A stretch of DNA of 24,405 bases, taken from positions 1-24,405 of IMG/VR virus record IMGVR_UViG_3300045999_006411; one strand, 5' to 3'. Shown here piece after piece: positions 6,716 to 20,055 of this stretch. Position 1 is the stretch's first letter. Each line of letters opens with the position of its first letter. The position numbers were made by a program, and so were the translations under genes. This DNA comes from a virus. Below the pieces are notes generated by a model. That model had not been told where the DNA came from, did no database searches, and saw nothing but the letters and a program-made list of their open reading frames with translations.

Positions 6716-6901
6716 ATGCCGCTCGCACTTGTTACCCGGCGCTATATCGACGACGGCCTTCACGAGGCTGGCGACATTATCGAGTTGACGCCGGAACGGT
6801 TCGAGTCTCTGAAGCTGCAGGGGCTGGTAATCGAATCAGCCCCGCAGCCTGAGGCCGAAGAAACTCCTCCTCCCGAATCCAACCGCAAAGGCAAGAAATA
6901 A
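6716..6901 (+). CDS. small hypothetical head protein
   Basis: This 61-residue protein starts at ATG 6716, 8 nt after GAGGG (6703-6707), and ends with a TAATG overlap into the next gene. It reads as a short beta-alpha fold (PLALVTRRYIDDGLHEAGDI then LTPERFESLKLQGLV) and finishes in an acidic Pro/Glu tail and a basic NRKGKK end. A 'VTRRY...G..idLtpe.fe.L...G.v' pattern is common in small phage proteins between the capsid and connector genes. A head-associated role is inferred from position only. Confidence 0.65.
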   Translation: MPLALVTRRYIDDGLHEAGDIIELTPERFESLKLQGLVIESAPQPEAEETPPPESNRKGKK

Positions 6902-7293
6902 TGCCCGCAGCAACCGTCCATGGTGAATACTCGATCGTCGAAAATGTGACCGCCGCCCGCGAAGTGCAAAGCGGCCACCTGCATCTCTGCCCCGATGGCC
7001 GCGTAGGCTATTACGGCGGGGCTCAGACCATTGCCAGCGCTGGCGTGATTCCATCGCTGGAAACCGAAATCGTTCTGAAAATTGAAGCCGGAAACTTCGC
7101 CGCAATTGCCGCTGGGCAGCCGGCGAACTTCAATTTCACAACCCAAAAATTGGTTCTCTCAGGTGGCACAAACATCGGCACCTACGTCAAAAACAAGGCC
7201 CTCAACGCTACCCACGGTATCGTGGTCTTGAACAACGCAGGCCAGCCGCTGAACACCGCTCAGGTTCCGACAACAACCACCGCCGCTCCATAA
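6901..7293 (+). CDS. putative capsid decoration protein with Thr-rich C-terminal tag
   Basis: This 130-residue protein lies directly downstream of the capsid fusion. It is rich in beta-strand-forming stretches (EVQSGHLHLCPDGRVGYYGG, then alternating hydrophobics), compatible with a small capsid decoration protein. The family is not certain. The last residues are PTTTTAAP, the same end as the tail tube protein at 8399-8875 and a unit repeated in the 15900-17012 protein. A strong terminator follows, so this gene ends the head section. The function is inferred from position and composition. Confidence 0.6.
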   Translation: MPAATVHGEYSIVENVTAAREVQSGHLHLCPDGRVGYYGGAQTIASAGVIPSLETEIVLKIEAGNFAAIAAGQPANFNFTTQKLVLSGGTNIGTYVKNKALNATHGIVVLNNAGQPLNTAQVPTTTTAAP

Positions 7294-7725: not shown

Positions 7726-8399
7726 GCACGATGCCGACTCAGTTCGCCATTCGCATGACGGTGAAGCAGGCCAAACGCCTCTTTCTGGATCGTCCTGCAA
7801 TCATCAATCGGCTCGACAAAGTTTCCCGCCGACGACTGGCAATTTTCGGTGGATACACGCTGCGGACCGCGCGGAATTCCATCAAACCTTCGCGTGATAT
7901 GCGAGTGGACGAACTACCCGCAGACATCAAAGAACTGCTCGGAGAACTGGCACAGCCGCAAAGCGTTAAACGCGACCAGCGAGGCCGATTCCTTGCAGGC
8001 GCTCGCAAGGCTCAGGAACTGTCAGTCCGGGAACTGGTTTCCCCATGGCCGCAAACCACTGGGACACCGGGCAAGCCGCCGCAATTCGCCCGCAGTTACA
8101 CGTATGGCGGGAAGAAGTTTTCGAGGTTCAAGGACCTCATCGTTTTTATCGTCGAACCGAACCTTGCATCCGTGGTTATTGGGCCGATCATATTCGACCG
8201 CAACGACGTTCCCGGCATCCTCGAAGAGGGCGGAATGTCAAATTCATACGTGCCGAATTGGTTCCGTTTGCCAGATGGGAAAATCCGGTCGAAGTTCACC
8301 AAAAAAGCCAAGCGAATCAAGCCACATCCGTACATGGGGCCAGCGTTCGACATTGCTCTTGATCGTCAAGTTCCTCGCATTTTCCGGGAGATTTTCTGA
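7722..8399 (+). CDS. tail completion / neck protein (HK97 gp10-like)
   Basis: This 225-residue basic protein has an N-terminal helix (VKQAKRLFLDRPAIINRLDK), a long central region and the C-terminal segment KPHPYMGPAFDIALDR. The end matches the style of HK97 gp10-like tail completion proteins, which characteristically finish with 'RPFl.pAl......'. Such proteins terminate the tail tube at the head-proximal end. It overlaps the preceding gene by 4 nt and shares TGATG with the tail tube gene. At 225 residues it is longer than the usual ~130-150, the extra length being the loop-rich middle (around KRDQRGRFLAGARKAQ and the SPWPQTTGTPGKPP stretch). Confidence 0.65.
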   Translation: MSTMPTQFAIRMTVKQAKRLFLDRPAIINRLDKVSRRRLAIFGGYTLRTARNSIKPSRDMRVDELPADIKELLGELAQPQSVKRDQRGRFLAGARKAQELSVRELVSPWPQTTGTPGKPPQFARSYTYGGKKFSRFKDLIVFIVEPNLASVVIGPIIFDRNDVPGILEEGGMSNSYVPNWFRLPDGKIRSKFTKKAKRIKPHPYMGPAFDIALDRQVPRIFREIF

Positions 8400-8875
8400 T
8401 GGGCTACAAACACGGCCTTCGCAATAAGTTCTATGTGAGCTCAACGCTGCATCAGGCTGGTACGCCGATCACCTGGTCCGAACTGGACTTGGCCGAATCG
8501 GTGGGCAATGAAGACAGCCGATCTGAAGCGGAAGTCATTAACCGCCGCGGGGATTTCGTTTTGTACGGCACCGGGAAACGCACTGTGACATACACCGTGC
8601 CGTGCACGTTCGACCCGGCCGACGCCGCACAGGCAATTCTGTGGACCGCCTACCGCAACGGGACGCCCGTGGCCATTGCCGACATGGATGGCGCGATCAA
8701 CGTCAATGGCACGAAAGGGATGTTTATTGACTGCGTCGTGGTCAGTGCTCCGAAGCCGCAGGACCTCGCCGCATTCGACACGGTGGAATTCGGCATCAAG
8801 CCGGCAGCCGCATCTGTATACACTCCAAACTACACCACAATTTCCGGCGCGACCACAACGACCGCCGCACCGTAA
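8399..8875 (+). CDS. major tail tube protein with Thr-rich C-terminal tag
   Basis: This 158-residue protein has the size, position (after tail completion, before the chaperone pair) and beta-rich pattern of siphovirus tail tube proteins such as lambda gpV. Features include TYTVPCTFDPADAAQAILW (a strand and then the helix of the tube fold) and NGTKGMFIDCVVVS. The C-terminus is ISGATTTTAAP, ending in the same TTTTAAP tag as the decoration candidate. In a tail built of stacked hexamers, each subunit would display one such tag, giving many copies per virion. Start and stop overlap the upstream gene by a single base (TGATG). Confidence 0.72.
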   Translation: MGYKHGLRNKFYVSSTLHQAGTPITWSELDLAESVGNEDSRSEAEVINRRGDFVLYGTGKRTVTYTVPCTFDPADAAQAILWTAYRNGTPVAIADMDGAINVNGTKGMFIDCVVVSAPKPQDLAAFDTVEFGIKPAAASVYTPNYTTISGATTTTAAP

Positions 8876-13016: not shown

Positions 13017-13026
13017 GGGCCGCGTG

Positions 13027-15894
13027 ATGGCAATCAATAAATTCAGGGGCGACGCGACGCCGCTGCAGAAAATCGTTCGACTTGTTTCGCCTGGTGGCAC
13101 GGGACTTGTGCAGGCAGAAATCCGCTGCGGCACGCGCCTGTTTTCGTTCCCCGAATGGAACGCGGGAGCGATCGTCACGGCGCTCAACAATGCAGGCGTG
13201 CCGGAGTTTGCCAATATCGCATTCACCGCCGATCCGGAGACGGGCGACGTAGTGGCGACTGGGCCGCTCGACGACGATTACACGTTGACGCTCACATACC
13301 GCCCGACCGTGACAATCACGAACGAGTTCGGCATCACGCCAGTGAACCAGATCACGGAACTGAATTTCGCGGGCGCACGTGCGGGCACGTATACGCTTAC
13401 CATCAACGGGCTGACAACCGGAGCGATTACCTACGGCGACTCCGCTGACCTGATCAGCAAAATCAACGCCCTGAGCGGATGGACTGCCGGAGATGCTGTG
13501 GTTCGCTCGCAAACGCCGGATTCTGTGCTGATCGAATTTACTGGCACACTCGCCGCAACGCCCGTCTCTGTGGTGATGGACGCAACAAATCTCCGCAATG
13601 GAACAACAATTTTCATCGACCAAAAACGAGCATACACGCCTGGCCCGCATGATGTGTGGATGCTCGGGATCGAACAGAATGAAATCATTACGATTACGAT
13701 TGACGGAAACGCTGGATCACTGCGAAGCGACGCGGGGCTTGAGGCAACGCGGCAACTCATTAAATCACTGGCGACGAACGCCGTGGAAGTCTACGGCGGT
13801 TTTCTTGCGTCTGGGGCGGACATCGCCCGTTCGCACTACATCTTGGACTTCACCGGCTACACGTCCGCCAGCCGCCCCACAATCAGCATTTCGGGTGGCA
13901 CCGCCTCCGCTCTCAAGATCTTAAACAACCCAACAACGGCACTGACGACAACATCTCAGTTTGCCAGCAATGAATCTTCAGCGGGATACCCTGCGCATTA
14001 CATTCTGGACTTCACGACGGGAAACACGATTACCCTCGAATACGAAGGGCAAACGGTCACAATCACCAACGCCTTCGCCAACGTGCAGCCGGACTACGCC
14101 AACACTGCACAGCACACAGCCTACGAAAACGCTGTTGCCGCCGCAGTGTTTGCTTTGAACGACCGCAGTAACTTCACCGACTTTCGCGCCTCTGTCGGAC
14201 GCAAAATTGGCGGGGCCGCAAACTGGGGCGATGTCACATACGCTCCATATTCGTTCTTTCACCCGCAAATCTTCCACATCGTCGACAACGCGCAGAACCT
14301 CACCGGGGCTGCCATCGGGCCGTCTTTGCGGCAGATCGGCGGAAGTGGTACGCTTCGCCTTATCAATCAGCCTGGAAGCGCGGAAGCAGCTGCAATCCAT
14401 CGCGTGTGGCTTCCCGCAAAATCTTCCAGCGGCACGTTCCAGTTGGTGTTCCCCGAAGGCACAACGACCGCATTCCAGTGGAACGCATCGGCCGCGACGA
14501 TTGAAGCCGAACTGGACGCACTGATCGCCTCTGGCCTCTCCGTCTCTGGATCCGGTACACCGTCGGCACCGTGGGAAATCACATACACGACGGCGCTCAA
14601 AACGCGACCGCTGCCGACACCCCGCAACGTGGCAATCGGCGGGTATGGTATCGGCGAGGCGACGACGCTGGCATCTGCAGTGCAAGGGCAGACGCAAACG
14701 GCGGAAATCACTGTCTCCAGCAACGCCGTTTCCGGCTCGTTCTCCATCAACATGGGGCAGCAGGGGCCGGTAGTTGTCCCGCTCAACACGTCCGCATCGA
14801 CGCTGCGGACGCTGCTGGCAACGCTGCCGGCAATCGGCGACGAGGATAACATCCTTGTCACCTACAATTCAGCCTCACAATCCTACGAAATCACCTTCAC
14901 GTCGGCATTGGCAAACCGCTTACTCCCGGGCTTCAGCCTCGCCCGCAACAGCCTTGACGTCATCACGGCGAACACCATCAGCGTCACTCAGCGAGCCACT
15001 GGGCCGCGAAACTGGGCCGACCCGCTGAACTGGTCTTTGGGGCGTTTGCCGGCCGCGACGGATGAAGTGGTGATTGACGGCGCCGACGATGACATCACGT
15101 ATGGACTTCGGCAGTGGGTGATGGTGCAGACGGTGGCGACATACACCCCGCAACCGACAACCACCACTAGCACGACCACAAGCACGACAGGCACGCCGCC
15201 GAATTTGCTGACGAAATTGCGAGCGATCGGGAGCCATGATTTTCGTAACGGGCAAGAGGTTCGATTGACGACATCCAGTGGCCTTCCAGGTGGGCTCTCG
15301 ACCGGCACGACCTATTACGTGCTGGACGCAAACAACGAGGATGGCACGTTCCAGTTGTCCGCAACGGCCGGCGGTTCGCCGATCACGATCACATCGGCCG
15401 GAACTGGCGTGCACTACTGCGGTTTGCTGGCCTCTGCAGTCCGAATCACTTCGCAGTTTGCGGACGAACTCGGACGCGAGGAACGCATCGCCGCCGGGGC
15501 CGTGGAATACCGTCCTCGATACCTGCAGATCGGGCTGGCATCTGGTTCGCTGTGCGAGATCGGAGCGGGCGTAGGGCGAGGCTCTTCGCTGATTCGCCTT
15601 GATTTCGGGCGCTCGGCTGGTACTCTTCGGCTGCTGCGATCGTCAACAACTGCGGAGCTTGACCGCCAGGCCGTCTGTATTCTGTCCGCTGTTTCGACGT
15701 TGGACGTGGAGGTGGTTTCTGGTGAGTTGGGAGTTGCAACGTTTGACGAAGACACATCAACCATTGGGACGCTGACACAGAATTCCGGGACCGTTGTTTG
15801 CGGCAACGTGACGGCCTCGGAGATTATCAAAACAGGCGGCCGGCTTCTCAGCCGGAATCTCTCCGTCACAGGCAACGTGGGCATTCGCGGGTGA
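13027..15894 (+). CDS. large tail fibre / adhesin with beta-domain repeats
   Basis: The 955-residue product is chosen from ATG 13027 (a GTG at 13024 is adjacent; AAGGG lies 7 nt upstream). It contains several copies of a beta-domain with a strand 'GT(Y/F).L...G.TT', an 'NASAATIEAEL' or related helix and a closing 'I.FT..L'. Clear copies start near residues 115, 467 and 568, and a partial pair shares HYILDFT. Around residue 663 comes NWADPLNWSLGRLPAATDEV, then a Thr/Ser/Pro linker (TTTTSTTTSTTGT, about 709-721). A GLSTGTTYYVLD-containing domain follows, and finally a beta-helix-like C-terminus. It is probably the receptor-binding or fibre protein. The repeat style resembles planctomycete secreted and phage proteins. 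Confidence 0.7.
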   Translation: MAINKFRGDATPLQKIVRLVSPGGTGLVQAEIRCGTRLFSFPEWNAGAIVTALNNAGVPEFANIAFTADPETGDVVATGPLDDDYTLTLTYRPTVTITNEFGITPVNQITELNFAGARAGTYTLTINGLTTGAITYGDSADLISKINALSGWTAGDAVVRSQTPDSVLIEFTGTLAATPVSVVMDATNLRNGTTIFIDQKRAYTPGPHDVWMLGIEQNEIITITIDGNAGSLRSDAGLEATRQLIKSLATNAVEVYGGFLASGADIARSHYILDFTGYTSASRPTISISGGTASALKILNNPTTALTTTSQFASNESSAGYPAHYILDFTTGNTITLEYEGQTVTITNAFANVQPDYANTAQHTAYENAVAAAVFALNDRSNFTDFRASVGRKIGGAANWGDVTYAPYSFFHPQIFHIVDNAQNLTGAAIGPSLRQIGGSGTLRLINQPGSAEAAAIHRVWLPAKSSSGTFQLVFPEGTTTAFQWNASAATIEAELDALIASGLSVSGSGTPSAPWEITYTTALKTRPLPTPRNVAIGGYGIGEATTLASAVQGQTQTAEITVSSNAVSGSFSINMGQQGPVVVPLNTSASTLRTLLATLPAIGDEDNILVTYNSASQSYEITFTSALANRLLPGFSLARNSLDVITANTISVTQRATGPRNWADPLNWSLGRLPAATDEVVIDGADDDITYGLRQWVMVQTVATYTPQPTTTTSTTTSTTGTPPNLLTKLRAIGSHDFRNGQEVRLTTSSGLPGGLSTGTTYYVLDANNEDGTFQLSATAGGSPITITSAGTGVHYCGLLASAVRITSQFADELGREERIAAGAVEYRPRYLQIGLASGSLCEIGAGVGRGSSLIRLDFGRSAGTLRLLRSSTTAELDRQAVCILSAVSTLDVEVVSGELGVATFDEDTSTIGTLTQNSGTVVCGNVTASEIIKTGGRLLSRNLSVTGNVGIRG

Positions 15895-15899
15895 ACTAA

Positions 15900-17012
15900 A
15901 TGAGCGCCGATTTTTACGCAATCGAACCAGACGATCGGCGCACGTTCAATGAACTTTGCGACTGGTGGCGGAGGCAATCTCCGGGAACGCCGCAATACGC
16001 TCCGCAGTCCCCGGGGCAGGCCGTCCCGATGATGCTCCTGCAAGCACCGCAGGGATGGACGCAGGGCCGCTATTGCCCGATGGTGGTTGATCCGCTTTAC
16101 CCGTATGCCTACGACGTTTGTCTCATCGGCTATCCGGCCGCGTATCAGACCGGGCTTGTGGAGTCCGGGACGTTCCGCGTTTCGTGGCGTGGGGTGCAGT
16201 CAGAACCTATCGGCTTCAACGCAACCGCGCTGCAGTTTCGGGCCGCTCTACCACCTGGGCTGCGTGACATCTGTAAAGTCACTGGCGGGGCAATTTCGGA
16301 GGTAACTCCAGACGGCCGCGGGCAGACGTTTTACCCGGGCCGCTGGTTCGTTTCGCTTCCGGAGCGGATCCCGGAACTGCAGGCCGTGGCACTCAATCAG
16401 GGCAATTTTGATACGCTCATTCTCCGCGTTTCAGAAAGCCCGCTCGCCGCCGCCAACGACGTTTACCGCTGCTGGGCTCTCACCAATCGCACGACCGCCC
16501 CGCGAATTGCAGTCGGGGCTCTCGCATTAGGCTGGTACACTCAGGGAATCGGGCTGATCGTGGGCGTGGTAGAGCCTCGCATCTACGAGGCATACCGGGG
16601 CGAGCCGATTTATCCGGAGCCGACCACGACAACGCCGGCACCAACGACCACGACCACGAGCACAACGACTGCAGCCCCGACAACGACAACGGCAGGGCCG
16701 ACCACAACCACGACGCCGTCGGGAGTGACAACAACCACGACACCGGCACCGACCACGACCACAACGACAACCACTGGGCCGCCAGTTGTCACAACGACAT
16801 CGACGCCGGAGCCGACCACAACGACGACTGGGGATCCGGGGACGACCACAACGGCCGCACCGACAACGACCACGACTGGCGAGCCAACCACAACAACAAC
16901 CGCCGCGCCAACCACGACAACACAGCAACCGACAACGACAACGCCAGCACTGCCGACCGAAGACCCAAATCCCGGCACCACCACCACCACGACAACAACA
17001 GCACCCCCATAA
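15900..17012 (+). CDS. virion protein with long mucin-like Thr-rich tail
   Basis: Residues 1-238 are a globular domain with no assigned family. Within it, ESGTFRVSWRGVQSEPIGFN at about 88-107 continues into an ATALQFRAAL segment and matches the strand-helix core of the fibre beta-domain. Residues ~239-370 are a low-complexity tail of TTTT/TTTTT blocks separated by AAP, PAP, GEP, GDPG or QQP, and more than half of it is Thr. There are no basic residues in the tail and only a few acidic ones. Such sequence is extended and protease-resistant when glycosylated, as in mucins. The gene lies between the fibre and three glycosyltransferase genes, so a surface-exposed, possibly glycosylated virion protein is inferred. 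GGTGA near 15889 may serve as its RBS. Confidence 0.72.
   Translation: MSADFYAIEPDDRRTFNELCDWWRRQSPGTPQYAPQSPGQAVPMMLLQAPQGWTQGRYCPMVVDPLYPYAYDVCLIGYPAAYQTGLVESGTFRVSWRGVQSEPIGFNATALQFRAALPPGLRDICKVTGGAISEVTPDGRGQTFYPGRWFVSLPERIPELQAVALNQGNFDTLILRVSESPLAAANDVYRCWALTNRTTAPRIAVGALALGWYTQGIGLIVGVVEPRIYEAYRGEPIYPEPTTTTPAPTTTTTSTTTAAPTTTTAGPTTTTTPSGVTTTTTPAPTTTTTTTTGPPVVTTTSTPEPTTTTTGDPGTTTTAAPTTTTTGEPTTTTTAAPTTTTQQPTTTTPALPTEDPNPGTTTTTTTTAPP
16620..17009 (+). repeat. ACN-rich low-complexity tract encoding the Thr repeats
   Basis: About 390 bp consist almost wholly of Thr codons (ACA, ACC, ACG mixed) broken by short CCN/GCN/GGN spacers. Codons vary between blocks even where the protein is identical, so the amino-acid pattern appears to be maintained rather than being a fresh DNA slippage product. 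The tract is a likely site of length variation between relatives by recombination. Confidence 0.9.
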
Positions 17013-17026
17013 TTTCAGGCTAACCC

Positions 17027-17974
17027 ATGAGCAAACCGCGTCTCACAATCGGCATCGCAACGCACAACGATTTCGACGGGCTGTACTTCAGTTTGAACGC
17101 TCTCCGGATGTATGTTCCGGACGTATCAGAGTGTGAACTGATCGTGGTGGATAACGCTCCGGAGTCCCGCGCGGGCAAGCGGGCAGAGGGCCTCATCGCT
17201 CACATCAACGCCGGGCGATCGGCACCGAAACCGGGCGACACAATCGCCGCACATTCCGCCAGGTGGATCCCGTTCGGCGGCATCGAAGGCACCGCCGCAC
17301 CGCGGCAGAAGATTTTCGACGAGGCAGCCGCTGACTGGGTTCTAGTAATGGACTCGCACGTTTTGCTACATCCGATGGCGCTCCCGGCCTTGTTCGACTT
17401 CATTGACCGCAACCCCGCTTCCCGCGATTTGATTTCGGGGCCGATGATGCTCGACAGTCACCGCGGCATTCTGACGCAATTCGACGACATCTGGCGGGAT
17501 GGCATGTGGGGCATCTGGGGACACGACCCACGGGGCGAGCATCCGGATTTCGGCGGTGAGTTTGAGATTCCCGCCATGGGCCTCGGGCTGTTCGCCTGCC
17601 GCCGCGAGGCATGGCTGGGCTTCAATCCGCACTTCAGGGAATTCGGGGGCGAGGAGTTCTACATCCACACCAAATTCCGCCAGGCCGGGGCAACGTGTTT
17701 GTGCCTGCCGATGCTTCGGTGGCAGCACCGTTTCGGGGATCCGGAAGGCGGGCGCAAATCTCCGCTTTCCCTTCACGGCAAAGTCAGAAACTACATCCTC
17801 GGGCATCAGGAACTGGGCATTCCACTTGACCGACTCCGCCGCCATTACGTGGAAGGCATCAACGAAGACACCGGGAAAGCCGAATCAAAGGACGGCCGAC
17901 TCAGCCCGCTCCAATTCGACACCCTCGCCCGTATGGCCGAAACGTATCCGCCTGTCTCCGCCTTCATCAATTGA
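17027..17974 (+). CDS. GT-A glycosyltransferase resembling polypeptide GalNAc-transferases
   Basis: The 315-residue protein begins with a nucleotide-sugar fold strand (RLTIGIATHNDFDGLYFSL), then VLVMDSHVLLH with Asp109-Ser-His111. Downstream come GLGLFACRREAW (185-196), EFGGEEFYIHTKFRQAG (205-221) and RWQHRFGD (231-238, His234). Polypeptide GalNAc-transferases (GT27) use a DSH metal site, a 'GGLF' strand, a WGGEN motif and a later metal-binding His in this same order. The match is by motif order and is not proof of sugar or acceptor. It starts 14 nt after the Thr-rich gene and overlaps or abuts two more transferase-like genes. A related GT2 assignment is the main alternative. Confidence 0.75.
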   Translation: MSKPRLTIGIATHNDFDGLYFSLNALRMYVPDVSECELIVVDNAPESRAGKRAEGLIAHINAGRSAPKPGDTIAAHSARWIPFGGIEGTAAPRQKIFDEAAADWVLVMDSHVLLHPMALPALFDFIDRNPASRDLISGPMMLDSHRGILTQFDDIWRDGMWGIWGHDPRGEHPDFGGEFEIPAMGLGLFACRREAWLGFNPHFREFGGEEFYIHTKFRQAGATCLCLPMLRWQHRFGDPEGGRKSPLSLHGKVRNYILGHQELGIPLDRLRRHYVEGINEDTGKAESKDGRLSPLQFDTLARMAETYPPVSAFIN

Positions 17975-17982
17975 GACCCGCC

Positions 17983-18627
17983 ATGCACGTCTACATCACA
18001 TCTCGCAACCTGCTTTCCGCCGTGGAATTGGCGCTGCAGATCGAAGCGCAAAAAGGCGTTACGGGCATCACCGTCATTGACTGTGCGAGCACATACCAGA
18101 GGCTCTACAAACAATACGCCAGCCTGCCGGCGTGGATGGATATTCACTACGCCAAAAACCTCGGGCCGCGGGCCGCGTGGGCTGCGTTCCAGCCGGTCCC
18201 GCCGTATGTTGTCACTGATGGAGATCTCTCGATTGCCGACTGGCCAGAGGATGGGCTGTTGAGGCTGCGGAACATCGCGGCAGACTATCCCCAACACATC
18301 AAGGTCGGAGCCGCTCTACGCATCGACGACCTGCCGGAAAACGAGATCACAAAACAAGTCATCGCCCACGAATCGCAATTCTGGACGCGACCGCTGGGCA
18401 ACGACCTTTTCGCCGCCGACATAGACACCACACTGGCCGTCTACAACGTGCCGACGTGGGGCGGGTACGGTCCGGCAATCCGTCACGGTGGGCTGCAGGC
18501 GCGGCACTTGCCGTGGTATATCGACCCCGCAAACCCGCCCGCCGATTACCTGCACAATCTCACACAGGACGAGGACATCCCATGCAGTCACTGGACAGCG
18601 AAACTCCGGCAAGCCCTCCCACGGTAA
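17983..18627 (+). CDS. glycosyltransferase-like protein with DGD motif
   Basis: The ATG at 17983 is preferred over the in-frame TTG at 17971, giving 214 residues. The N-terminus (MHVYITSRNLLSAVELALQI) is a GT-A-like first strand and helix, followed by GITVIDCAST. The segment PYVVTDGDLSIADWPED carries Asp79-Gly-Asp81, a DxD-like metal site. NLGPRAAW at 59-66 resembles the conserved strand before the DxD in short phage transferases. At 214 residues it is a minimal catalytic domain. It is the second of three transferase-like genes in a row and probably acts on the same glycan. Donor and acceptor are unknown. Confidence 0.65.
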   Translation: MHVYITSRNLLSAVELALQIEAQKGVTGITVIDCASTYQRLYKQYASLPAWMDIHYAKNLGPRAAWAAFQPVPPYVVTDGDLSIADWPEDGLLRLRNIAADYPQHIKVGAALRIDDLPENEITKQVIAHESQFWTRPLGNDLFAADIDTTLAVYNVPTWGGYGPAIRHGGLQARHLPWYIDPANPPADYLHNLTQDEDIPCSHWTAKLRQALPR

Positions 18628-19382
18628 CGTGGATCACTCCGACGTATTGCCGCCCGCAAACGCTGGCAAATCTCATCGCCTGTTTCCACGCGCAGACTTA
18701 CCCCGCCGACCGCCTGAGGCTGCTGATTTTGGACGACGTGGGGCAGTATCCCAGCCAGCCTTCCGGAGACCGCTGGGAAATCGTGTCGATCCGGAAGCGG
18801 TTCGCGAGCCTCCCCGCGAAATTCAACGCGTTGGCGGGGCTGTGTGACAGCGATATCATTGTGGTGGCGGAGGACGATGATTCGTTTCTGCCGGAACACA
18901 CCACATGCCACGTTCTGGCACTGGACGAAGGCGACTTCAGTAAGCCCAGCCGCGTCCTGTCCGACTATCAATGCCGGATCGGCGAGCACCGCGAGGAGCA
19001 GGCTGCAGGGCGGTTTCACGGATCGGTCGCGTTCTGGCGTTCTCACTGGGAACGAAAGGCCGGATGGCCGCTCTCCCATCAGGCGAATTTCGACCAGCAA
19101 ATGATGACCCACTTTGCCGCGGAATCCATCACCGTGGACCCCTGCCGATTTGGCCCGCCGCAATATGTTTTCCGCTGGCACACCGGGCACTTTCACGGGC
19201 AATCGCAGGCGACTGGACCGGAGGACGCCGAATGGTATTCGCGGTTCTCTCGCAACGCTGAGCCGGTGGAGACGATCGTTCCGAAACTTGACCCCTACAC
19301 AGAGGCGCTCTATGAATCCCTCAAGTATCGGAAACCCGTGGAACCCCATGCCGGGTTGGAGATTCCCGGGGCCAATGGATGA
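18582..19382 (+). CDS. family 2-type glycosyltransferase
   Basis: The start at ATG 18582 has GAGGA 6 nt upstream and overlaps the previous gene by 46 nt. The 266-residue protein has the GT2 N-terminal signature TWITPTYCRPQTLANLIACF, the nucleotide-binding strand LLILDD (47-52) and DIIVVAEDDDSFLP with Glu97-Asp98-Asp99-Asp100 as the metal site. The C-terminal half contains FHGSVAFWRSHW and a His-rich FRWHTGHFHGQSQ stretch near residue 200. It is the third transferase-like gene of the cluster, likely an extending enzyme for a short glycan, by inference from the neighbours. Confidence 0.78.
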   Translation: MQSLDSETPASPPTVTWITPTYCRPQTLANLIACFHAQTYPADRLRLLILDDVGQYPSQPSGDRWEIVSIRKRFASLPAKFNALAGLCDSDIIVVAEDDDSFLPEHTTCHVLALDEGDFSKPSRVLSDYQCRIGEHREEQAAGRFHGSVAFWRSHWERKAGWPLSHQANFDQQMMTHFAAESITVDPCRFGPPQYVFRWHTGHFHGQSQATGPEDAEWYSRFSRNAEPVETIVPKLDPYTEALYESLKYRKPVEPHAGLEIPGANG

Positions 19383-20055
19383 GGCGCGGGCGCCGTTCAA
19401 CCTGCTGGGCAATCGTGGGGCGTTTGACGCTGTGGGCGTCCCCTACGCCTTCGGGGTGTGGTTCGGCGATCAATTGGTGGACATCTGCCGCCGCGTGCTG
19501 CAGACCGTGGGCGGAGTGACGTGGCTCGATAACGACCTGCGAATGCGACTGGAGGCAGCATACGGCGAAGCGAAAGGACGCCAGGTGTGGGCGGACATCA
19601 TGAACTGGCGTTTCTGCCACACCCGCAACACTGGATCACCGCCGACGGCAAACGAGGGATTCTACTGGTGGGGCAGCGGCTACGAACACCCGAATTGGGT
19701 GGGCAATATCTGGACGATTGCCGTGAACGACTTCCGCCCGCCTGGGGCCGTGTTCGCGGCACCTCCAGAGGAACCATATCCCAGCGAGGATGGCAGACCG
19801 TGGATACTGGAAGGCGACGATTTGCGCCGCTGGTCGATGTTCCCAAACACCGCTCCGCGCCGCGTGGCAATAGTGACGCCGAATCCGCCGTGGGAGCGAT
19901 ATGACCTGTATCAGACCTACGACGCCGGCCAAGCCGATTCCCTGCCGGCCGACGTGTACAGGGCTGGCACATTCGTTTTCCCGTCAGTCACGCTCTACGG
20001 ATGCACGGCGGGGATCTTGGGCAACAGGGTGAGACTGGAGCCGGTGCAGGTTTAG
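19312..20055 (+). CDS. unknown protein ending the late gene block
   Basis: The ATG at 19312 (AGAGGCG upstream) gives 247 residues and overlaps the transferase gene by 71 nt. A later start at 19375 (MDEARAPF) would avoid most of the overlap. The protein is rich in Trp, Pro and Gly, with notable segments RLEAAYGEAKGRQVWADIMN, EGFYWWGSGYEHPNWVGNIW and DLYQTYDAGQADSLPADVY. I do not recognise a family. Its coupling to the transferases suggests a role in glycan or virion assembly, but a structural role is equally possible. No signal peptide or membrane segment is evident. Its stop lies 3 bp from the end of the opposing minus-strand gene. Confidence 0.6.
   Translation: MNPSSIGNPWNPMPGWRFPGPMDEARAPFNLLGNRGAFDAVGVPYAFGVWFGDQLVDICRRVLQTVGGVTWLDNDLRMRLEAAYGEAKGRQVWADIMNWRFCHTRNTGSPPTANEGFYWWGSGYEHPNWVGNIWTIAVNDFRPPGAVFAAPPEEPYPSEDGRPWILEGDDLRRWSMFPNTAPRRVAIVTPNPPWERYDLYQTYDAGQADSLPADVYRAGTFVFPSVTLYGCTAGILGNRVRLEPVQV

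Follow-up and report, generated by a model that had tools for sequence, protein, structure and literature searches.

The late operon of an uncultured virus, known from the 24,405-base IMG/VR record IMGVR_UViG_3300045999_006411 (a 24.4-kb contig, analysed over its whole length and called the window below), ends in a Thr-rich protein followed by three transferase-like genes, and this arrangement raises the question of what these enzymes modify. The Thr-rich protein is encoded by open reading frame (ORF) 15900-17012, and the three following proteins are named GTa, GTb and GTc. The operon runs head to tail on the + strand through terminase (330), portal (2828), capsid/protease (4458), tape measure (9820) and tail protein genes, and the four genes sit at its end, after the tail genes, in agreement with the location inside a late structural block given by the initial annotation. 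The answer proposed here, to which we assign a probability of about three in four, is that the phage encodes a mucin-like O-glycosylation module, expressed late and acting in the cytoplasm, whose substrates are virion proteins. This answer is carried by the genes themselves, by the predicted fold and the metal triad of GTa, by the recurrent adjacency of GTa to Thr-dense ORFs and by the co-occurrence of C-terminal Thr tags with genes of glycosyltransferase (GT) family GT2; the catalysis, the sugar, the order of action, the incorporation into virions and the benefit are what we infer.

ORF 15900-17012 has what a mucin-like acceptor is expected to have, a long Thr/Ser/Pro/Ala-rich stretch that appears maintained at the protein level. 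The Thr-rich C-terminus of about 130 residues, the 14-nt gap and the three following genes had been described before, and these coordinates are correct: the ORF is separated from GTa by 14 nt, and its tail of 132 residues includes 74 Thr, 24 Pro and 11 Ala. Its Thr residues are encoded by ACG (25), ACA (25), ACC (20) and ACT (4), and identical neighbouring codons occur 11 times, fewer than the 16.7 obtained from shuffling (p=0.057). Microsatellite slippage was considered as a source of the Thr tract and rejected; codon use is mixed and identical neighbours are few, therefore Thr appears to be maintained at the protein level. In homologues (L002, L191-L195; L numbers denote the loci and records compared), the N-terminal domain is conserved at 63-88% identity, while the tails differ in length and order and are all still Thr-rich.

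GTa passes the Pfam model of GT2, PF00535, with 33.7 bits (cut-off 23.3). Its best sequence matches in the PDB are two polypeptide N-acetylgalactosaminyltransferases (ppGalNAc-Ts), ppGalNAc-T10 (E 7e-4, and 7e-6 by profile) and ppGalNAc-T7 (E 0.01, and 2e-4 by profile). The AlphaFold2 model of GTa, built from 30 homologues, has a predicted local distance difference test score (pLDDT) of 89.7, and when it was compared with the PDB by Foldseek, the 50 best of 438 significant matches were all ppGalNAc-Ts, headed by 2d7i (E 8.9e-15, TM-score 0.64 on the query), with sequence identities of 15-21% to the structures. Residues D109, H111 and H234 are invariant in 30 of 30 homologues, align to the DSH and GH motifs of ppGalNAc-T10 and are taken by us, from established knowledge, to be the metal ligands of a DxH...H triad. 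The catalytic GT-A fold of GT27, in a predicted model, and its triad are thus both found in GTa, which is the only one of the three transferases with GT27-like character. The system would work like mucin-type O-glycosylation, and membership of GT27 is not claimed.

A search with a GTa-only profile, blind to Thr content, returned 37 viral loci. Thr-dense ORFs, defined by at least 9 Thr in 16 residues, are found in the 2 kb upstream of GTa in about 32 of 35 loci, often at a distance of 0-110 bp; elsewhere within 10 kb they are almost absent. With the GTa proteins clustered at 70% identity into 26 independent clusters, 20 have a Thr-dense ORF whose end lies no more than 2 kb upstream, while random anchors in the same loci give an expectation of 2.85 and a maximum of 12 in 100,000 simulations. 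Once their Thr-rich parts are masked, the upstream proteins form 13 groups between which BLAST detects no similarity, so Thr-richness, and not one protein family, is conserved beside GTa; BLAST may have missed a deeper homology. Scans of whole records found ACN5 runs in 25 of 26 GTa records, mostly far above the reversed-pattern control, and in 2 of 9 GT2 control records, in counts not above that control. A negative-control search with one GT2 protein gave only 6 loci, none with a Thr-dense ORF, and this small size made the scrambled-pattern control described below the main one. GTa and its Thr-rich neighbours can be separated by other genes: by ORFs that resemble GT2, FkbM methyltransferase and sulfotransferase by sequence inspection at L005:8012-11011, where the neighbour is a Thr/Ser-rich ORF, and by a gene whose cysteine motif is radical-SAM-like at L200:8926-10008, where the neighbours are Thr-rich ORFs.

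The association is also found when the search begins with the acceptor. Two more ORFs of the window, 6901-7293 and 8399-8875, terminate in exactly TTTTAAP, a C-terminal tag with zero matches in 100 dinucleotide shuffles of the window. A scan of viral contigs for this terminal tag gave at least 120 stretches, compared with 61 for a composition-matched scramble, and the tagged ORFs among the matches listed come from unrelated phages with 31-67% GC content. GT2 genes are present in 20 of 50 tag records and in 4 of 50 scrambled-pattern controls (Fisher p 3e-4); among records of 30 kb or more, the counts are 16/22 and 4/20 (p 8e-4). Part of this association may come from shared ancestry or environment, which the control removes incompletely. 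In the GT regions of tag records that were examined, GT2 enzymes like GTc are common, and three of these regions have homologues of GTb, which are described by no public family searched. The reading of the locus as mucin-type O-glycosylation of virion proteins, put forward in the initial annotation, thus gains support from the predicted fold and triad of GTa, from its Thr-dense upstream proteins and from the enrichment of GT2 genes beside the tag.

In the window, ORF 6901-7293 matches PF09956 (Phage_cement_2) with E 0.008, under the curated cut-off, and ORF 8399-8875 has a homologue in the planctomycete prophage contigs L244 and L245, where it precedes the tape measure gene. The tail protein ORF 13024-15894 contains the internal Thr-rich sequence PQPTTTTSTTTSTTGTPP. 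ORF 15900-17012 is probably not the only acceptor. A tail-tube homologue in the L004 record ends in TTTTTTTTTGA and the L003 homologue has no tag, which suggests that tags come and go. Homologous tail-tube-like proteins are likewise seen untagged at L003:1966-2385 and with the C-terminal Thr tag SVTTTTTTTTTGA at L239:2600-3055. Many low-GC phages (L010-L129, e.g. L029, L062 and L089) encode proteins of about 45 residues of the form NLLWQISKQLDQLIKVTASLTTTTTTTTAAP. A GT2 protein (L049:114-1148, putatively the same as G025:C1:886-1149) itself seems to end in TTTTTTAAP, and judging from this apparent terminus the tag may extend beyond virion proteins.

Outside viruses, Thr-dense ORFs lie within 3 kb of GTa in 29 of 52 bacterial loci. 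The distant homologues belong to Alphaproteobacteria, Desulfobulbaceae and others, in settings other than a phage late operon. In L258, L273, L274 (Oricola) and L295 (Bradyrhizobium), GTa is fused to an HprK-like (HprK_rel_A-like kinase) domain, and the fusion lies close to PqqD-like and nucleotidyltransferase-like genes and to short Thr-rich exported peptides. The region L295:8657-11260, like those of L274, L258 and L273, looks like a glycopeptide system of the type of ribosomally synthesized and post-translationally modified peptides. This second, bacterial setting, in which Thr-rich peptides lie near GTa with no phage late operon, is the strongest argument that the target of GTa would be a Thr-rich polypeptide rather than the envelope of the host.

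Table 1. Features of the window, in order of position
Feature	Coordinates	Strand	Length	Remarks
C-terminal TTTTAAP tag	7270..7290	+		ends ORF 6901-7293, weakly like phage cement protein
C-terminal TTTTAAP tag	8852..8872	+		ends ORF 8399-8875, tail-tube position, upstream of tape measure gene
Internal Thr-rich linker	15145..15201	+		in tail protein ORF 13024-15894; kept in L002, L191-L195
Thr-rich (mucin-like) late protein	15900..17012	+	370 aa	proposed main acceptor; 238-aa N-terminal domain and 132-aa Thr/Pro/Ala tail
Thr-rich tail	16614..17009	+	132 residues	74 Thr
GTa	17027..17974	+	315 aa	GT-A glycosyltransferase, GT27-like fold (predicted); proposed initiating O-glycosyltransferase
GTb	17983..18627	+	214 aa	probable GT-A-type transferase; invariant D-x-D (D79, D81)
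GTc	18582..19382	+	266 aa	GT2-like transferase, DDD motif; PF00535 E 2.6e-4
Last late-operon ORF	19312..20055	+		kept alongside the transferases in L002 (77%)

The annotation of all three genes as glycosyltransferase-like stands in part. It is borne out for GTa, GTc falls just under the cut-off of PF00535 (21.4 bits against 23.3), and GTb, with a conserved DxD only, has no Pfam or PHROG match; profiles of GTb gave nothing significant in the PDB (best E 0.79 and 0.12). GTb homologues are found in unrelated low-GC phages with TTTTAAP-tagged records (hmmsearch 1e-35 to 1e-24), and of the 9 loci found by searching with the GTb family, 3 (L347-L349) lack a Thr-dense ORF over the DNA available, so GTb alone is no predictor of Thr tags. 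Homologues of GTc lie downstream of GTa in L003, L004 and the planctomycete prophage contigs. GTb and GTc are possible chain-extending enzymes. None of the three has a tblastn match at E<=1e-3 among 50,697 cultured-phage records.

In the proposed mechanism, GTa would move the first sugar, probably an N-acetylhexosamine, from a nucleotide sugar onto Thr of disordered Thr/Pro/Ala-rich stretches in the cytoplasm, and GTb and GTc would probably lengthen or vary the glycan. Candidate acceptors are the 132-residue tail of ORF 15900-17012, the linker of ORF 13024-15894 and the TTTTAAP tags of two further proteins, one cement-like and one at the tail-tube position. Virions made in this way would bear mucin-like glycan bristles on tail and capsid, for which shielding, adhesion or receptor mimicry may be the benefit. 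Methyltransferase-like extensions in homologous operons, together with the putative methyltransferase and sulfotransferase neighbours in L005, suggest that each phage decorates the glycan differently.

Several observations weigh against this mechanism. The C-terminal ricin-type lectin domain of most ppGalNAc-Ts is missing from GTa, in which PF00535 is the only Pfam model over its cut-off, and GTa homologues end in methyltransferase-like or other C-termini. A wider GTa profile (A3) has as its best PDB sequence match TarP, over the nucleotide-binding N-terminal half only, and since it favours TarP there, the donor sugar and the acceptor cannot be read from the sequence. AlphaFold modelling of the N-terminal domain of ORF 15900-17012 from 6 sequences reached only pLDDT 38, so no fold is claimed and the virion location of this protein follows from gene position. 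With a loose threshold, Thr-dense ORFs also appear in 8 of 51 control windows of 6.8 kb. The initial annotation had proposed a search for co-occurrence in relatives, and the outcome is divided: the pairing holds in the 20 of 26 clusters mentioned, and a minority has one partner alone. In the main clade of the GTa tree, the upstream Thr-dense ORF is missing only in L004, L205 and L210, while a second clade is mixed, with L214 and L215 positive and L218, L219 and L221 negative. Two apparent exceptions resolve, namely L004, which has the tagged tail-tube homologue, and L216 of the second clade, in which TTTTTTAAP ends directly upstream of GTa. L210 is a true exception, with no Thr runs detected in its whole 34.7-kb record, and the L218/L219/L221 subclade is without detectable Thr runs, as are two short contigs, L212 and L205, the latter a 6-kb fragment from a nucleotide-metabolism region. 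In the other direction, 6 of the 22 tag-bearing records of 30 kb or more have no detected PF00535.

The enzymes might instead alter the host surface, in superinfection exclusion or seroconversion, or a cell-wall polymer, and the Thr-rich protein would then be an unmodified tail or adhesin spacer that shares the end of the operon. Phage and prophage glycosyltransferases such as TarP and Gtr are established modifiers of envelopes, operons of this kind often carry host-interaction cargo at the tail end, and the TarP match of the wider profile points the same way. This is nevertheless unlikely: the adjacency of GTa follows Thr content across upstream proteins without detectable homology, its full-length predicted fold is closest to peptide-modifying GalNAc-Ts, its bacterial homologues lie near Thr-rich peptides outside phages, and no membrane gene like GtrA or GtrC was seen in the operon. 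That the enzymes glycosylate phage DNA, in the form of hypermodified bases, is very improbable. Phage glycosyltransferases acting on DNA do exist (Pyle et al. 2024, as cited in PMC12619734), but here the genes occupy a late-operon position beside structural genes, family searches recognised no pyrimidine-modification gene in the window, and both the Thr-rich peptides near bacterial homologues and the fold closest to polypeptide transferases speak for another substrate.

A virion could also be glycosylated with no part played by the Thr tracts, if these serve, unmodified, as flexible or adhesive spacers and the transferases act on folded sites of other virion proteins, as in the mycobacteriophage Che8. 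The capsid and major tail proteins of Che8, reported to be glycosylated (Freeman et al. 2023, as cited in PMC11256854, PMC12363180 and PMC12619734), have no Thr-rich C-termini, so that Thr tracts are dispensable for phage virion glycosylation. Such an explanation, which we consider less likely still than action on the host surface, leaves unexplained why a GT27-like enzyme is recurrently found beside Thr-dense proteins and why terminal TTTTAAP tags predict GT2 genes, and the Che8 proteins gp109 and gp110 are without similarity to GTa. Glycosylation of the Thr-rich stretches themselves is the reading kept here.

The probable host can be read from the nearest cellular relatives of GTa (57-58%), which lie on contigs of planctomycete metagenome-assembled genomes (L243-L246). 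Two of these, the prophage contigs L244 and L245, have tail-tube, tape-measure, Thr-rich, GTa and GTc genes in the order of the window, and in L245 chromosomal-type genes come after the phage-like gene set; a planctomycete host is therefore likely, as judged by gene order. A near-identity DNA search among cultured phages gave zero matches, and no result pointed to a mycobacteriophage. Elsewhere in the window, ORF 19312-20055 has no match in Pfam/PHROG-type family searches, and ORF 23341-24153 matches phrog_5931 (E 2e-29) and has a weak similarity to ParB-like partition proteins.

Thr-dense ORFs are repeatedly paired with GTa, both in bacterial gene clusters and in dozens of phages that are only distantly related. 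The wider proposition is that a cytoplasmic counterpart of mucin-type O-glycosylation is widespread in prokaryotes and their viruses, made of a GT27-like family and Thr-rich acceptors, in phage late operons and in HprK_rel_A/PqqD-type clusters, with phage acceptors in the form of tails, linkers and short C-terminal TTTTAAP tags that come and go on virion proteins, and with Thr-rich exported peptides in the bacterial clusters; taken as a whole, it stands evenly between acceptance and doubt. If the module is real, uncultured phages with glycosylated virions, and the proteins that carry the sugar, could be predicted from a genomic signature, either a Thr-dense ORF next to GTa or a terminal TTTTAAP tag. 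The mucin-initiating enzymes would gain soluble relatives of a single domain from prokaryotes, useful for the question of GT27 origin and as tools, and a function would be found for unexplained Thr-rich proteins in viral metagenomes and bacterial PqqD-type clusters.

Among known systems, the glycosyltransferases of mycobacteriophages Che8, Corndog and Myrna glycosylate capsid and tail proteins, according to PMC11256854, PMC12363180 and PMC12619734, all citing Freeman et al. 2023. Che8-type glycosylation shares with the window the phage-encoded enzymes and, in those same texts, glycans on capsid and tail-tube subunits at their C-terminal ends, where ORFs of the window carry tags. It differs in that the acceptor C-termini of Che8 are not Thr-rich, its glycosyltransferases gp108-110 are encoded at the far genome end, away from structural genes, and it has no pairing of a Thr-rich protein with a GT27-like enzyme; gp109 and gp110 gave no significant alignment with GTa, so homologous glycosyltransferases, as expected of mycobacteriophage-type glycosylation, were not found in this comparison. 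TarP, the phage-encoded wall teichoic acid GlcNAc-transferase, has a GT-A nucleotide-binding half similar by profile, but the match covers profile positions 2-125 only, whereas the 50 best structural matches of full-length GTa are all ppGalNAc-Ts. The bacterial clusters of the HprK_rel_A/PqqD type (L274, Oricola; L295, Bradyrhizobium) also combine a homologue of GTa with a nearby short exported peptide rich in Thr, and differ by the fused HprK-like kinase domain, the PqqD-like and nucleotidyltransferase-like neighbours and the lack of a phage late operon. Literature searches, with preprints and most subscription journals outside their reach, found no description of a Thr-rich phage protein paired with a glycosyltransferase or of GT27 in phages. 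Eukaryotic mucin-type O-glycosylation by GT27 shares the predicted catalytic fold, the DxH...H triad, the GGE motif and a Thr/Pro/Ala-rich acceptor, while GTa, of about 315 residues, has neither ricin-type lectin domain nor secretory anchor and would work in the bacterial cytoplasm. Glycosylation of phage virions is known, and what appears new in this variant is the pairing of a GT27-like enzyme with Thr tags.

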